32,772 bases of DNA from Balneolaceae bacterium (GTDB lineage: Bacteria; Bacteroidota; Rhodothermia; Balneolales; Balneolaceae), in NCBI GenBank assembly GCA_020832225.1, contig JAFIFA010000181.1:1-32772 (forward strand), read 5' to 3'. Shown in pieces: positions 1 through 5,789 of the stretch. Both the position numbers and the translations under genes were made by a program. The notes beneath the pieces were generated by a model, which saw only the letters and a list, made by a program, of their open reading frames with translations, did not search any database and was not told where the DNA came from. The first letter of the stretch is position 1, and each line of letters begins with the position of its first letter.

Positions 1-12
1 CATCAAAAGTCC

Positions 13-218
13 GAATCACACCCCAAACGTGCCTTTAGGGACGTAATATGGGTAGAAAACGATGATTTACGCACACTCCACCGTGCCGTAGGTACGGAAT
101 GTGATTCTATTTGAGGCCCAATTGCAATTCCTGCCCGTTCATATAGCGTACCTAACGGCACGCTCCCCGGATTGGCTCATCACTCGTTTCTACCCATATT
201 TTGTCCCTAGCGGGACAA
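13..218. repeat. Palindromic repeat, copy 1 (complete)
   Basis: The left arm (29-97) and right arm (146-216) are imperfect reverse complements. Each arm carries two small hairpins, one of the gtccct/agggac type and one of the ccgtgcc/ggtacgg type, joined by a conserved core containing 'atatgggtagaaa'. The whole unit could fold into a long hairpin with a loop of about 50 nt. Copy 4 (1501-1704) matches it over 204 bp with about 16 differences and no length change, so the two share a recent origin. Such REP/BIME-like palindromes are often linked to Y1 (RAYT-like) transposases, and one lies at 782-1243. No coding function is supported. Confidence 0.85.
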
Positions 219-345
219 GGGGATCACAATGCAATCTCGGGCAAATTTATAGGATTTTTAACCAAACAATATCATTCCTGACGCAGAATGGATCAAGCCA
301 GATACAGAGTGGAATCCAATCAATTCCAATTATCCCGCACGGTTG
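205..345. repeat. Tail repeat following palindrome copy 1
   Basis: This stretch of about 130 bp after copy 1 is clearly related to the stretch after copy 3 (about 1312-1450). Shared landmarks in order are a 'cgggcaaat' block, an 'aatggatca' block and an 'aatcaa..tccaat/ccatt' block. The repeating unit is therefore larger than the hairpin: palindrome plus an AT-rich tail. The tail has no convincing coding capacity. Confidence 0.65.
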
Positions 346-393
346 ATATCAATTCAAAGGGCATTCTTGCTCTTCCATAAATTATAGTTATGC

Positions 394-590
394 CCAAACG
401 TCCCTTTAGGGACGTAATATGGGTAGAAAACGATGATTTACGCACACCCCACCGTGCCGTAGGTACGGAATGTGTTTTTTGATGGGTGCGAACTGCCATT
501 CATGCCCGATTATATGACGTACCTAACGGCACGCTCCCCTGGATTGGCTAATCGCACGTTTCTACCCATATATAGTCCCTAGCGGGATAA
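394..590. repeat. Palindromic repeat, copy 2 (complete)
   Basis: The left arm starts at 400 with gtccctttagggac and the right arm ends at 575-588 with gtccctagcgggat. The arms match those of copies 1 and 4, but the central loop (about 470-512) differs. The copy is therefore older or has exchanged its loop. It lies about 190 bp upstream of the transposase gene. The stretch 591-781 between them shows only a small cccctcgggg palindrome (616-625) and no gene. Confidence 0.82.
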
Positions 591-781
591 GGTCACCAAT
601 CAAATACAGGTCTATCCCCTCGGGGCCATTGGCGTCTGACCATTTTGTTTGGCTATAAATTGAGCAAAAAGCACATCCGGGAAATAATACCCAATGATTG
701 AAATTTACCCCTTGGTTAGATTGATACTGCCAAATTCATTGTTAGAAATAAAACCTAAAAAAGAATGGGGGATCAAGGGCA

Positions 782-1243
782 ATGGCCAATACCTATACTC
801 AAATTCATATTCACGCCATTTTTGCTGTTCAAAACCGTCAGAGCTTAATTCGTAATGAATGGGAAAATGACCTTTATAAATACATTACAGGCATCATAAG
901 TAATCACAACCACAAATTGCTACAAATAAACGGAATGCCCGATCATGTACATATGCTGATTGGATTGCGACCTTATCAAAGCCTCTCCGAACTGATGAAG
1001 TATGTTAAACAGGATTCATCAAAATGGTTAAACCAAAATGTGTTATATAATAGCAAATTTACCTGGCAGGATGGATTTGGTGCTTTTTCATACTCTAAAT
1101 CTCAGGTTCCCGGAGTTATTAAGTACATTCAAAATCAGAAAGAGCATCACAAGAAAAGAAGCTTTAAGGAAGAGTACTTGGATTTTCTAAAGAAATTTGA
1201 TGTCGATTTTGATGAGAGATACATCTTTAAACCAATCGAATAG
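782..1243 (+). CDS. IS200/IS605-family Y1 transposase (RAYT-like)
   Basis: This is a single-domain HUH/Y1 transposase of 153 aa, the usual length for IS200 TnpA. Visible motifs are the metal-binding His pair H55-V-H57 in the 'PDHVHMLIG' block and the catalytic Tyr115 in 'IKYIQNQKEHH', with Gln119 following. In the family these enzymes cut and rejoin single-stranded DNA next to small hairpins, using a 5'-phosphotyrosine intermediate. No TnpB or IscB gene is present. The gene lies between a complete palindromic repeat (394-590) and a lone right arm that begins only a few bases after its stop. That layout fits a REP-associated transposase maintaining the surrounding repeats, or a solo IS200 element whose ends are the repeat arms. 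All key residues are present, so it may be active. No strong ribosome-binding site is visible beyond 'gggggatcaagg'. Confidence 0.93.
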   Translation: MANTYTQIHIHAIFAVQNRQSLIRNEWENDLYKYITGIISNHNHKLLQINGMPDHVHMLIGLRPYQSLSELMKYVKQDSSKWLNQNVLYNSKFTWQDGFGAFSYSKSQVPGVIKYIQNQKEHHKKRSFKEEYLDFLKKFDVDFDERYIFKPIE

Positions 1244-1245
1244 AT

Positions 1246-1327
1246 CATATAGCGTACCTGACGGCACGCTCCCCGGATTGGCTAATCGCTTGTTTCTACC
1301 CATATATAGTCCCTAGCGGGACAAAGG
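1246..1327. repeat. Palindromic repeat, copy 3 (right arm only)
   Basis: This is the right half of the palindrome: 'gcgtacctgacggcacgc', the conserved core, then gtccctagcgggac ending at 1323. No matching left arm is found immediately upstream, because the transposase reading frame ends at 1243. Its tail (to about 1450) is homologous to the tail of copy 1. The half-copy marks either the right end of the transposase element or the site where insertion replaced the left half. Confidence 0.8.
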
Positions 1328-1450
1328 GGGAACATAATGCAACTACGGGCAAATGATTGGGATGATTACCCAATTACAACCATTCCCAATCCATAATGGA
1401 TCATATCAGATGTAGGGTACAATCAAATCCATTCCGATAATTCCACATTG
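1312..1450. repeat. Tail repeat following palindrome copy 3
   Basis: This is the direct-repeat partner of 205-345 with the same ordered blocks: 'cgggcaaat', 'aatggatca' and 'aatcaaatccatt'. Divergence is greater than between hairpin copies 1 and 4, so the hairpins appear more conserved than the tails. Confidence 0.6.
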
Positions 1451-1500
1451 AGGGATTGAGAGTATGGATTAACAGAAAAATCTTGATCTTGGAACAATCA

Positions 1501-1706
1501 GAATCACACCCCAAACGTCCCGTTAGGGACGTAATATGGGTAGAAAACGATGATTTACGCACACCCCACCGTGCCGTAGGTACGGAATGTGATTCTATTT
1601 GTGACCCAATTGCAATTCCTGCCCGTATATATAGCGCACCTAACGGCACGCTCTCCGAATTGGCTAATTGCACGTTTCTACCCATATTTTGTCCCTTGCA
1701 GGACAA
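1501..1706. repeat. Palindromic repeat, copy 4 (complete)
   Basis: The left arm runs 1517-1586 and the right arm 1633-1704. It has the same length as copy 1 and about 92% identity over 204 bp, including the non-palindromic loop. Some differences in the terminal hairpins keep pairing (left: gtcccgttagggac), while the right end (gtcccttgcaggac) has drifted. It lies about 155 bp beyond the 3' end of the minus-strand amidohydrolase pseudogene. Confidence 0.85.
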
Positions 1707-1767
1707 TGAAATCCTAAACCTGATCGGGCAATTAAAGAAAAAAATTGCTCAAGACTATGAATTGAAA

Positions 1768-1788
1768 TGCATGAACAGAATTCATGCA
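1768..1788. other. Small perfect hairpin downstream of the amidohydrolase pseudogene
   Basis: An 8-bp perfect inverted repeat, tgcatgaa/ttcatgca, with a 5-nt loop lies between repeat copy 4 and the stop codon of the minus-strand pseudogene. On the minus strand it is not followed by a clean T-run, so terminator function is only a possibility. The rest of 1707-1861 shows nothing else. Confidence 0.4.
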
Positions 1789-1861
1789 ATTAAACAGAGG
1801 AAATCGCCCTTTATCTCATTTTCTCATTTTCGTCCAATGAGCAATGAGACATTTAATCTGC

Positions 1862-3403
1862 TTACTCCACGTTCCTCCGAATCATTCCTGAAGGTAAAAG
1901 GCCATTCCTCTCACCCTCCTCAATCAAAGCCACCCCGTTCACGATCACCCAATCAAACCCTTCAGCGAGTGTATGAGGATTTTCGAAATCGGCTGGATCG
2001 TTGACTTTTTCAGGATCGAATATAAGCAGATCCGCTGCAAAACCTTCACGGATTAGCCCGCGCTGAACGTCAACCTGAGCTTCGTCTGTTAGACCGAGTG
2101 TTTCAGCCGGCAAACCACTCATTTTGTAGATCGCCTCCTCCAGAGGAAAAAGATTGAGCTCATTCACATACTTACGAATAATCTTCGCAAAACTGCCGAA
2201 TCCCCTGGGGTGCCTCATTTCCGGTCCGCCATCGGTGCTTACCATCACGTGTGGATCGACCAGAAACCGCTGCATCACATCTTCATTCATCACAAAATAA
2301 GCGGCACTTCCACCCTCCGGGCCTATATCTTCAATTCACCCCTCCTCGAACGGGTTGTCCAGCTCATCTGCAACTTCAGCGCGTGTCAGACCGGTCCACG
2401 GCTCGGGGCCAAAAAGAGTTGCTTCCGGCCCGTTTCTCTGTTCAATGCGGTTGCGAAGATAGTCGGAAAGTTCATCACGCCGTGTTTCAATCGCCTCATC
2501 AAACTCCTCCTGCGTGTTGGCCCAGTCAGGGAAGACCAGCCCAATCGTGGTAAAGCTTGCGATATATGGATAGAGATCGGAGGTAACTCTCAGGCCAGAC
2601 TGCCTCGCTTCCTCAATCAGCTCCAGCACATCCTCTGCCCGCTGAGGATCATCAGCAAAGACGATCTTCAGGTGGGAAATGTGTGTCTGAACATCCGCCT
2701 CGAGGCCAATCTCCATCAGTTCGATCACCGAATCATCGATCCGGTCGTCATCTTCACTTCGAACGTGTCCCATCAAAATACCACCCCGATCGGCCACGGC
2801 CGAAGCAAGGTCCACAAGTTCATCACGCCCGGCAAAACTTCCCGGTTCAAACTCAAGTCCGAGAGAAAGCCCGAATGAACCTTCGTCCATCGCATCCTGA
2901 AGCTGCTCCCTCATCGCGTCAATGTATGAAGCGTCCACATCCTCTTGCCGTGGTATACCTGTCAGCTCACGAATGGTGCTGTGGCCTGTGAAGTGAATGA
3001 TATTCGGCCCCGTACCCTTTTCGTCCACGCTGCTCATCCAACTGGCGAGATCTTCTGCTCCGGGACTGGTTCCAACAAGGCCGAGCGTAATTGTGGTAAC
3101 GCCCATAGAGAGAAAGTTATCGAATCGGGGTGTCTCAAGCGGCTCCCCTCTTGAGTGGGAATCTATAAAACCTGGGGAGATGACGTGTCCCTCAGCATCA
3201 ATTGTTATTGATGCAGTGAGCGTTGTAAGATCAAAATTACCCGCCTGAACGATCACTCCATCGTGAACCAACACGTGCCCCTCTGCCGGCACAGTACCGC
3301 TGCCGTCATAGATCATTCCATTCTTGATCAGAAGATCGTAATCGGGTTGAGAGCAGGAGATTGCAAAGAGAATTAGAAAAAAAAGGGTAACGAGCTTATT
3401 CAT
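1862..3403 (-). pseudogene. D-aminoacylase-type amidohydrolase, broken by an in-frame UGA
   Basis: This is a paralogue of the intact gene at 4221-5789. The N-terminal 355 residues (2339-3403) and the last 157 codons (1862-2335) lie in the same frame. They are separated only by a TGA at 2336-2338, where the paralogue has a leucine codon just after 'PFEE'. No indel is needed. The combined length is about 513 codons, against 522 aa for the intact copy. The start gives a lipoprotein signal ending at Cys17. The family is the N-acyl-D-amino-acid deacylase branch of the amidohydrolases. The usual metal-site HxH is H83-S-R85 here, so the second histidine is lost, and the paralogue's GQDG is LVG. These changes suggest relaxed constraint before or after the nonsense mutation. 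Alternatives are a sequencing error at the TGA, UGA readthrough, or expression of a C-terminal piece from the Met codon at 2293. Confidence 0.85.
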
Positions 3404-3564
3404 CAGGACGTAATTTGATTAACTTTTTCGAATTGTTGATCCCTTCAATATGAAAAGACGCTATTTGTAGCTTCACCGCAAATACCCACAAAACTTTGAG
3501 CTTAACTCACAAAATCATGAGATCTTTGTGAAACCTGGGCAAACATGCCAATTTAAATCGATCT

Positions 3565-3867
3565 TTATCGTGATTTTAAAATATCTAAATGAAGTAATTG
3601 CTCTTCTCTAATCACGTGGATAATGTAGACTATTTCACCTGACAGCCGATAAAAAATTCTGCACGGTGGCAATATAATTTCTTTATAAACAGATACTTCA
3701 AATTCATCCACAAGTTTACCACTTTTGGGATGGTGAGCTAAATGGTCTACCCTTTTGAATGCCTCAAGAACCAATTTTTTTGCAGCTATTGGGTTATCCA
3801 ATGAAATGTAATCGGCAATTTCGTCGAGCTCCTGCAGAGCCGGTTCAGTCCAGATTATTCGAGCCAT
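3565..3867 (-). CDS. RelE/ParE-family toxin
   Basis: The 100-aa protein has the family pattern: N-terminal 'WTEPALQELDEIADYI', a central 'HHPKSGKLVDEF' loop, then 'CRIFYRL' and an 'IIHVIREE' strand near the C-terminus. This is the small RelE/ParE fold. ParE-like members poison DNA gyrase and RelE-like members cleave mRNA on the ribosome. The spacing and 'AAKKLV' helix look ParE-like, but the target cannot be decided from sequence alone. Its start overlaps the end of the antitoxin gene by 13 bp in another frame, implying translational coupling and shared transcription. The pair sits between two amidohydrolase paralogues on the same strand. Confidence 0.88.
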   Translation of the reverse strand: MARIIWTEPALQELDEIADYISLDNPIAAKKLVLEAFKRVDHLAHHPKSGKLVDEFEVSVYKEIILPPCRIFYRLSGEIVYIIHVIREEQLLHLDILKSR

Positions 3868-4112
3868 CGCGCCATGCGCTTTTTGGCATCAGCATGAGAG
3901 ACAACCCGATCTTCAAGTATGGCTTTTTCTCCTCTGGCCAAACCTTCCAGAAGTTTTAATTTCTTTTGAATCTGTTCGAAATGATCCACATCAACCAGAT
4001 AAGCAGAAGGCTTTCCGTGTTCAGTGATCAATATAGGCTCTTTTTCTTCTTTCAGCTCTTTTAAGAGCTTTGTTGCCTGGCGTTTGAGTGTTGTAACAAG
4101 TTCCGTCTTCAT
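3855..4112 (-). CDS. Phd/YefM-family antitoxin
   Basis: The 85-aa protein is first in the pair, as is usual for type II modules. The N-terminal part (about residues 1-50) has the Phd/YefM layout, including 'EPILITEHGKPSAYLVD', which forms the DNA-binding dimer in the family. The charged C-terminal half (about 50-85, rich in K, E and R) would wrap and neutralise the toxin. A near-perfect palindrome lies directly against the start codon (4113-4132) and is a good autoregulatory operator candidate. It overlaps the toxin start by 13 bp. Confidence 0.87.
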   Translation of the reverse strand: MKTELVTTLKRQATKLLKELKEEKEPILITEHGKPSAYLVDVDHFEQIQKKLKLLEGLARGEKAILEDRVVSHADAKKRMARWLE

Positions 4113-4220: not shown

Positions 4221-5789
4221 TTAATCAGAGCCTGGCAACGACCTCCGAAGCACCCCGGCCGGCCGCTCCTCATTCAGCTCACCTTCTTCGATAACGGCAA
4301 CCCCGTTCACAAATACCCAGCTGAAACCCTCAGCCAGGGTATGGGGATCCTCAAATGTGGCATTGTCTCTTACCGCATCCGGTTCAAAAATAAGCAGGTC
4401 GGCCGCAAACCCCTCACGAATGAGTCCTCTTGGCACTCCAACGGCTGCAACATCAGTGAGACCAAGCGTCTCGGCCGGCAAACCGCTCATCTTTCTTACT
4501 GCCTCTTCCAGGCTGAGCAACTCCAGTTCATTAACATATTCGCGGATGATTTTGGCAAACGTACCATACCCTCTTGGGTGACGCATGGTCGGGCTGCCGT
4601 CTGAACTTACCATCACGTATGGATCCTGCAGAAATCGCTGCATTACATCCTCATCCATCACAAAGTAGGCCGCGCTCGCGCCTCCCGGACCGATATCATC
4701 AATCAAAACCTCTTCGAACGGCTTCTCCAGCTCTTCAGCAACATCGGCCAGTGTCATTCCGGCCCATGGTGCAGTTCCAAAAAGCGTAGCTTCAGGGCCA
4801 TTACGCATATTCACCCGGTTCCTCAGATACTCTTCAAGCTCATCACGCCGGGCTTCCACCACGTCATCAAAATCGTTTGGAGGGAGAGCCCACTCGGGAA
4901 ATACAATGGAGATACCGGTAAAGCTGGCGGTGTAGGGGTAAACATCACCTGTCACCTGCAGGCCTTCGTCTCGCGCTTCATTCATCAAATCGAGTACCTC
5001 TTCAGCCTGCGAAATCTCATCACCAAAAACGATTTTCATATGCGAGGCGTGCACGGCTGCCCCCGAACCGCGCCCCTGTTCCAGCAGCTCATTCACGGAC
5101 TCCATTATCCGGTCATCATCTTCACTCCGCATATGGCTCATCACCAGGCCACCGGCTTCGGCAACCGGCTCAGCCAAAGCAATCAGTTCGGGAAGATCAG
5201 CAAATGTGCCATGGTCATACTCGAGGCCGGTCGTCATCCCAAACGATCCTGCCGCCATCGATTCCCTGATCAGCCGCTGCATCTCTTCGATATACTCCTG
5301 ATCCAACCCGCTTTCCCTGGGAGCCTCTACATGATTTCTGAGCGTGTTATGCCCAACAAAGTGAATGATATTGGGCCCGGTCCCCGTTCCGTCAACCTCA
5401 CGCATCCACCCTTCAATATTATCCATTCCGGGGCTTCGTCCATCCTGCCCGAGGCTGATTGTGGTAACACCCATGGCCAAAAAGTTATCAAAACGGGGAG
5501 ATTCCAGAGCGTTGCCGTGCGAATGGGTATCAATAAAACCTGGAGAGAGAGCGGCGCCATCGGTATCAATTACACGATCGGCAGTTCGTTCATCAAAGTC
5601 TGTATCTCCCACTTCAACAATGATGCCTTGGTGAACCAGAACGGATCCTAAAAAAGGCTCCTCACCGATTCCGTCGTAAATCATGGCGTTTGTTATGAGC
5701 AGATCAAATCTTTCGGAAGTGCCGGCATTGTCGCAAGAGGCAAGAAACAGTCCGGTAGTAAATAGAATTAGGAACGATAGTCGCAGCAT
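4221..5789 (-). CDS. N-acyl-D-amino-acid deacylase-type amidohydrolase (lipoprotein)
   Basis: The 522-aa protein has an N-terminal lipoprotein signal (lipobox LASC, Cys19), so it is probably anchored in an envelope membrane. The amidohydrolase TIM-barrel motifs are intact: H89-S-H91 after 'PGFID', 'HMRSEDDDR' around H219, 'HASHMKIVFG' around H247 and H250, and the C-terminal 'SSDGSPTMRHPRG' block with the catalytic Asp region. Members of this branch hydrolyse N-acyl-D-amino acids or related D-amino-acid conjugates and dipeptides. The usual metal-ligand Cys of classical D-aminoacylase (in GNCG) is replaced by GQDG, so the substrate may differ. It is the intact paralogue of the pseudogene at 1862-3403, with the toxin-antitoxin pair between them. 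It lies head-to-head with the DUF1684 gene at 6014. Confidence 0.9.
   Translation of the reverse strand: MLRLSFLILFTTGLFLASCDNAGTSERFDLLITNAMIYDGIGEEPFLGSVLVHQGIIVEVGDTDFDERTADRVIDTDGAALSPGFIDTHSHGNALESPRFDNFLAMGVTTISLGQDGRSPGMDNIEGWMREVDGTGTGPNIIHFVGHNTLRNHVEAPRESGLDQEYIEEMQRLIRESMAAGSFGMTTGLEYDHGTFADLPELIALAEPVAEAGGLVMSHMRSEDDDRIMESVNELLEQGRGSGAAVHASHMKIVFGDEISQAEEVLDLMNEARDEGLQVTGDVYPYTASFTGISIVFPEWALPPNDFDDVVEARRDELEEYLRNRVNMRNGPEATLFGTAPWAGMTLADVAEELEKPFEEVLIDDIGPGGASAAYFVMDEDVMQRFLQDPYVMVSSDGSPTMRHPRGYGTFAKIIREYVNELELLSLEEAVRKMSGLPAETLGLTDVAAVGVPRGLIREGFAADLLIFEPDAVRDNATFEDPHTLAEGFSWVFVNGVAVIEEGELNEERPAGVLRRSLPGSD

Follow-up and report, generated by a model that had tools for sequence, protein, structure and literature searches.

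A REPIN-like family of two-hairpin inverted arms associated with an IS200-type subclass 1.2 Y1 transposase in Bacteroidota

Overview

The window, a stretch of 32,772 nucleotides from a Balneolaceae bacterium, carries at its start an array of long palindromes around a Y1 transposase gene, and this locus is probably a REPtron-like cluster in which an IS200-type Y1 transposase of subclass 1.2 is accompanied by its own REPIN-like repeats. Matching arms flank tnpA genes of subclass 1.2, and palindromes without tnpA as well as single arms are scattered in genomes. Two inverted arms together make a long palindrome of 155-210 bp. A broader reading, towards which we lean only slightly, is that IS200-class transposases of subclass 1.2 run a phylum-wide and strand-specific REPIN system built on two-hairpin arms, that REP-type systems arose outside RAYTs and that the mobile unit is the long composite palindrome.

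Domestication of a bacterial transposase is usually illustrated by REP/REPIN systems, of which the well-described examples are those of class 2 RAYTs. If the broader reading is true, class 1 enzymes have a parallel system, present in a large phylum and within a subclass for which a survey recorded no REPs. It would provide a second case for testing the coevolution of enzyme and repeat and for asking why hosts retain both, would explain a frequent type of intergenic palindrome in Bacteroidota (a hairpin plus GGTAGAAA), and would show the GTAG tag in a geometry different from that of RAYT REPs.

Architecture of the palindrome array

Coordinates are window positions, and the window start is a contig end. 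The hairpins of an arm are called hp1 and hp2, and hp2' and hp1' on the inverted side. The features are as follows.

13-225, unstranded: composite palindrome copy 1, a left arm (hp1 29-42, GGGTAGAAA 50-58, hp2 83-95) plus an inverted right arm (hp2' 148-161, TTTCTACCC 187-195, hp1' 203-216)
219-339, plus strand: tail behind copy 1 (related tail: 1327-1447)
393-592, unstranded: composite palindrome copy 2, left side (hp1 400-413, ATATGGGTAGAAA 417-429, hp2 454-466) and right side (hp2' 519-532, TTTCTACCC 559-567, hp1' 575-588)
782-1243, plus strand: tnpA, intact Y1 HUH transposase of 153 aa, subclass 1.2 type
1245-1328, unstranded: right half arm, immediately following the stop codon of tnpA (hp2' 1254-1267, TTTCTACCC 1293-1301, hp1' 1309-1322)
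1327-1447, plus strand: tail after the right half, related to the tail at 219-339
1501-1706, unstranded: composite palindrome copy 3, left side (hp1 1517-1530, ATATGGGTAGAAA 1534-1546, hp2 1571-1583) and right side (hp2' 1636-1649, TTTCTACCC 1675-1683, hp1' 1691-1704)

The three full palindromes, the right half and the intact Y1 HUH transposase that the first-pass annotation had described at 13-1706 are all present. Its estimate that the arms pair over about 70 bp also held, as 58-60 of 69-72 aligned positions agree when the right arm of each of the three full palindromes is reverse-complemented and compared with the left, and each arm does contain two smaller hairpins (in copy 1, for example, hp1 and hp2 of the left arm). 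Arm-pairing scores in the window were 24-31, while the maximum over 1000 shuffles was 10. Folding as single-stranded DNA gave z scores of -6.9, -4.7 and -4.1 for the full palindromes, each inverted doublet thus forming one long hairpin as REPINs do.

Copies 1 and 3 are identical at 188 of 204 aligned positions, which bears out the 16 or so differences counted earlier. The tails, rightly noticed as related, belong to copy 1 and to the right half, and agree at 89 of 118 aligned positions. A leader, GAATCACACC, is common to copies 1 and 3 and precedes each. The kinship of the tails points to local duplication as a further contributor to the array. One could go further and ascribe the whole array to local tandem duplication and recombination between arms, with no part for TnpA; the tails and the shared leader speak for such an origin, but it leaves unexplained both the dispersed modules on other contigs and the filled Flavobacterium sites described below, and we hold it to be very unlikely. 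Local duplication can nonetheless operate within the REPtron-like reading, as far as the array itself is concerned.

The window tnpA has no adjacent left arm of its own, the nearest one being that of copy 2. The last 78 bases of another contig, C100, match the window start at 76 positions, so the array may run on leftward or C100 may be its neighbour. An Rfam search of positions 1-4000 gave chance-level matches, all below gathering scores, and a known structured RNA was rejected on this ground.

An in-frame stop divides the amidohydrolase-like gene adjoining the array (1862-3403, minus strand) into ORFs 2336-3403 and 1862-2293, and an intact paralogue occupies 4221-5789. A two-gene pair at 3565-4112 resembles a toxin-antitoxin module. 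It has 80-86% DNA identity across congeners, whereas the neighbouring hydrolase has only about 65-68%, which suggests horizontal spread of the pair. With this level of identity in the hydrolase, and with the contig end on the other side, no base-exact empty site for the window array was obtained from congeners.

The transposase and its class

The window TnpA carries the motifs GMPDHVH, WQDGFG and YIQNQKEHH and is a Y1 HUH protein of IS200 type. It scored 102 bits against PF01797, 75.3 bits against the NCBIfam IS200/IS605 model NF033573 (cut-off 55) and 34.5 bits against the RAYT model REP_Tyr_transpos, below the cut-off of 80. All 10 members of alignment A1 match both the IS200 and the RAYT NCBIfam models at E <= 0.001. 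A profile comparison with the solved TnpA proteins of ISDra2 and IS608 (PDB 2xm3, 2a6m) gave E values of 1e-12 and 7e-8.

Subclass 1.2 has been defined by DH[IV]H, WQ and Y-I--NQ--HH, a length of about 150 aa, low copy number and occurrence in Bacteroidetes (Quentin et al. 2018, PMC6006769). The window protein and its relatives display these traits (DH[IV]H, WQ, Y---Q--HH, about 148 aa, low copy). Identity as a RAYT, i.e. a class 2 TnpA-REP, was ruled out by YIQNQKEHH in place of Y---NP and by the model score. Judged by motifs and scores, the window enzyme is an IS200-like protein of subclass 1.2 and not a RAYT. The first-pass reading of the locus is partly supported: a REP-like family tied to a Y1 transposase is well supported, but this transposase belongs to subclass 1.2.

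It has to be considered whether the locus is an IS200-like insertion sequence of the ordinary sort, mobile as a unit and lacking a REP-like life style, whose MITEs are the palindromes. The NCBIfam name of the protein is IS200/IS605, and most relatives have one arm on each side of tnpA, close by, in a manner that resembles IS ends. Yet the near-identical multiple copies per genome that characterize IS200/IS605 were not seen: this genome (G000) holds one close tnpA copy, the next match having 36% identity, and copies inside other genomes are mostly diverged. A different Y1 tnpA in the same genome behaves as a real IS would, since it is cut off at three contig ends (L033, L034, L035) with near-identical sequence, as expected of a multi-copy IS200. 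Moreover, arms exceed genes, with 44 modules for one close tnpA. An ordinary IS is therefore unlikely, though it is the least improbable of the alternatives weighed in this study. The 36%-identical transposase, on contig C20, was also considered as the driver of the dispersed copies and was rejected, no shared arm motif being found at its locus.

Arm structure across relatives

A contig scan returned at least 575 TnpA relatives, and 80 loci were kept, from Flavobacterium, Algoriphagus, Dyadobacter, Pedobacter, Draconibacterium and others, with a few from Ignavibacteria and Verrucomicrobia. The relatives include one in a Balneolaceae MAG (L139, 59% identity), and several with 68-73% identity have matching arms on both sides of tnpA. 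The common arm plan consists of hp1 with a 5-bp stem, 7-9 nt, GTAGAAA (GTAG or ATAG followed by AA), about 20-30 nt and hp2; in most arms a tag variant (GTAG, ATAG or GTAA) stands 7-9 nt 3' of hp1. Arms usually lie within about 85 bp upstream of subclass 1.2 genes and, inverted, just downstream, typically at -85..-10 and +2..+75 relative to tnpA.

The inverted-arm test was applied to subclass 1.2 loci. Among 104 loci with two flanks, the best inverted match between upstream and downstream had a median score of 25.2 against 12.5 for pairs from mismatched loci, and the score exceeded every shuffle at 45 of them. For placebo intervals taken within these loci the median was 11 and the 99th percentile 17, compared with a median of 25.5 for the real flanks. 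About a quarter of the loci have no clear inverted arms, the 25th percentile of the scores lying near the placebo maximum. The arm plan was present in 73/110 upstream and 61/110 downstream flanks, against 31/320 segments taken 1150-1500 nt away.

Pairing was assessed in differently chosen sets. When arms were picked by similarity between upstream and downstream alone, 61 of 106 had at least two hairpins (1.6% of shuffles). In flanks picked by the GTAG-type motif alone, a perfect 5-bp hp1 was found in 76 of 122 (2.0% of shuffles); 38 different stems are represented, and the outer positions show all four Watson-Crick pairs. The second hairpin of these flanks was perfect in 56 of 104 (9.6% of shuffles). 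In alignment A4, 98.7% of cells are paired and 26 changes are two-sided, a result reached by 0 of 500 shuffles; its arms had been preselected for at least 4 of 5 pairs, so these counts are partly circular and serve as support only. The general whole-arm alignment A2, which misplaces stems with 3- versus 4-nt loops, was kept out of the covariation analysis.

The second hairpin is often GTGCC-loop-GGTAC; on the hp1-GTAG-hp2 strand this includes a G.T pair, and on the complement an A.C mismatch. Distinct arms with G.T numbered 77, against 1 with A.C, and among arms picked regardless of hp2 mismatch 24 had one G.T and 3 had one A.C; common descent accounts for part of these asymmetry counts and of the pairing counts. 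From these substitution patterns, the hairpins are strand-specific and their stems vary with compensation.

At L101, head-to-tail tandem units of a single hairpin and GTAG flank tnpA, which suggests that the hairpin-GTAG unit can multiply in tandem. A subclass 1.2 match with arm-like DNA was found in a MAG labelled Methylococcaceae (L104) and reflects transfer or contamination. At L039, L065, L067, L069 and L071, arms repeatedly stand beside the starts of genes whose proteins begin like MIKFFRTIRKKLIEQ...YAIGEILLVVIGILIALQINNW, often as duplicated pieces.

Copies within genomes and link to the enzyme

The strict pattern GGGACNNNATATGGGTAGAAA, with at most 1 mismatch, occurs at 40 sites in this genome and is absent from most congeners; the reversed control pattern gave 0 sites in all 129 genomes of the order. 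A covariance model counted 44 copies in this genome, 18 in G039, 31 in G027 and 41 in Flavobacterium cutihirudinis. Across the 129 genomes, at an enzyme threshold of E <= 1e-20, the module was present in 37 of 66 genomes with a subclass 1.2-like protein and in 4 of 63 without (Fisher p = 3.8e-10, shared ancestry being ignored). The strict pattern likewise accompanied the closest enzymes (8/12 versus 12/117 genomes, p = 2.8e-5). Four genomes thus had modules yet no enzyme at that threshold. G027 and G030 have 31 and 6 modules and no subclass 1.2 enzyme at E <= 1e-20; their repeats may be orphaned or the assemblies incomplete. In F. cutihirudinis, a subclass 1.2 tnpA (L230) has an in-frame TGA, and the genome still holds its 41 modules.

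Palindromes of this kind might alternatively serve the host, as bidirectional terminators, mRNA ends or nucleoid and supercoiling sites, with no active link to TnpA. Their strong folding in the window fits such roles, as does a copy in F. cutihirudinis (L226) whose gap directly follows a terminator-like hairpin. But a single transposase class has the arms on either side at a constant spacing, the presence of repeats follows the transposase gene across genomes, and most congeners are without the repeats, so that a purely host-serving role appears highly improbable. Inverted repeats both around the gene and scattered elsewhere in the genome are a RAYT-type trait that this system shares.

The dispersed copies of this genome resemble the window arms over about 30 nt only, hp1-GTAGAAA, and are joined to other modules, with AGCCCTGAAGGGGCG before and CGCGCCGAGGAG...CCGAGGCGC after. 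Because the dispersed module sits in other composites here, dispersal in this genome mainly concerns units other than the 200 bp palindrome. The composites (L007-L030) form a second family with apparent tandem G-A mismatches in the stem, and no transposase was found with them in this genome. In G039, from another family, the combination of array and tnpA resembles that of the window, and the same architecture recurs in G091. Relatives within the order likewise have intact dispersed composite palindromes. In F. cutihirudinis, whole composite palindromes of 155-176 bp with different stems lie away from tnpA (L223, L224, L226), and inside-out arm pairs occur as well.

Filled and unfilled sites in Flavobacterium

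In F. cutihirudinis the L226 palindrome lies between the terminator-like hairpin and the next gene, and its two flanks were used as a query against Flavobacterium congeners. A related palindrome occupies the orthologous site in G222. It is absent from G206 and from G151, where the interval is 77 nt instead of 262. Palindromes of other subfamilies fill the slot in G234 and G200, and most other congeners have unrelated repeats there. Presence/absence variation thus exists at one orthologous site, between species and with junctions that are not base-exact. This Flavobacterium intergenic slot (L244-L258) holds several unrelated repeats, TTTGTCATTTCGACGAAGGAGAAATC among them, and is a repeat hot spot.

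These results bear on the earlier suggestion of a host-lineage REP family with a long palindrome as its mobile unit. Further copies were found in the genome (about 40 of the hairpin module), hairpin changes keep pairing, and presence/absence variation exists between species at the Flavobacterium site, most congeners being without the repeats. A REP-like family is well supported; its architecture, however, is spread over the phylum and is no speciality of one lineage. As a dispersed unit, the palindrome is intact in F. cutihirudinis and in relatives of the order, but only the module of about 30 nt is dispersed in the present genome.

Proposed mechanism

The repeats are probably mobilised by TnpA as single-stranded DNA. 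TnpA would recognise the folded arm on the strand with the order hp1-GTAG-hp2, probably in the lagging-strand template, and the HUH site and Tyr115 would cut and rejoin it. The GTAG tag would likely have the role that it has in REP systems (PMC8266576), that of a guide or contact. Since each strand of a palindrome contains one correctly oriented arm, either strand would be usable. The palindromes may be relatives of the tnpA unit that were internally deleted or never bore tnpA, and local duplication would enlarge the array. We infer that TnpA may act catalytically on two-hairpin arms and, from filled versus unfilled sites, that the whole palindrome may be mobile.

Comparison with known systems

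The system shares with REPIN/RAYT systems (REPtrons, BIMEs) a Y1 HUH gene in low copy number with inverted hairpin repeats on either side, the dispersal of these repeats in intergenic DNA, the GTAG tag, the folding of inverted doublets into one long hairpin and a strand-specific element. In contrast, the enzyme has the class 1 signature Y---Q--HH where RAYTs have Y---NP. In RAYT REPs, GTAG is found at the 5' foot of a single hairpin; in these arms GT[AG]G is not directly at the 5' foot, and the tag comes 7-9 nt after a short hairpin, on its 3' side, and precedes a second one by 20-30 nt. Unlike in REPINs, the arms are two-hairpin units, and the doublet is therefore 155-210 bp long. The locus is REPtron-like in working, but it departs from RAYTs in enzyme signature and model score and in the position of the tag, and is hence not filed as a RAYT.

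With IS200/IS605 elements (IS608, ISDra2) the system has in common a homologous TnpA, small subterminal hairpins and the expected single-strand chemistry. Those elements have single subterminal hairpins and no long inverted repeats, whereas the ends here are inverted two-hairpin arms of about 75 bp (range about 70-85). Gene copies are few and diverged, many copies are gene-free, and no tnpB ORF adjoins tnpA in the window.

The likeness to TnpA-Y1 subclass 1.2 covers signature, size of about 150 aa, low copy number and occurrence in Bacteroidetes. The 2018 survey listed this subclass without REPs and generally without IS200-type terminal structures (PMC6006769), while structured inverted arms are the rule in the loci studied here. 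Its automatic search targeted GT[AG]G at the hairpin foot (PMC6006769), so two-hairpin arms would probably have been missed. No description of REPs for subclass 1.2 was found in the literature searched, ISfinder and most subscription papers lying outside that search. Finally, TIRYT genes and their TIRtrons resemble the present system in having a Y1 gene between terminal inverted repeats in moderately abundant families, and were for the most part assigned to subclass 2.1 (Di Nocera et al. 2013, PMC3733652); their TIR motif, GGGGWSAS, is unrelated to the arms described here.
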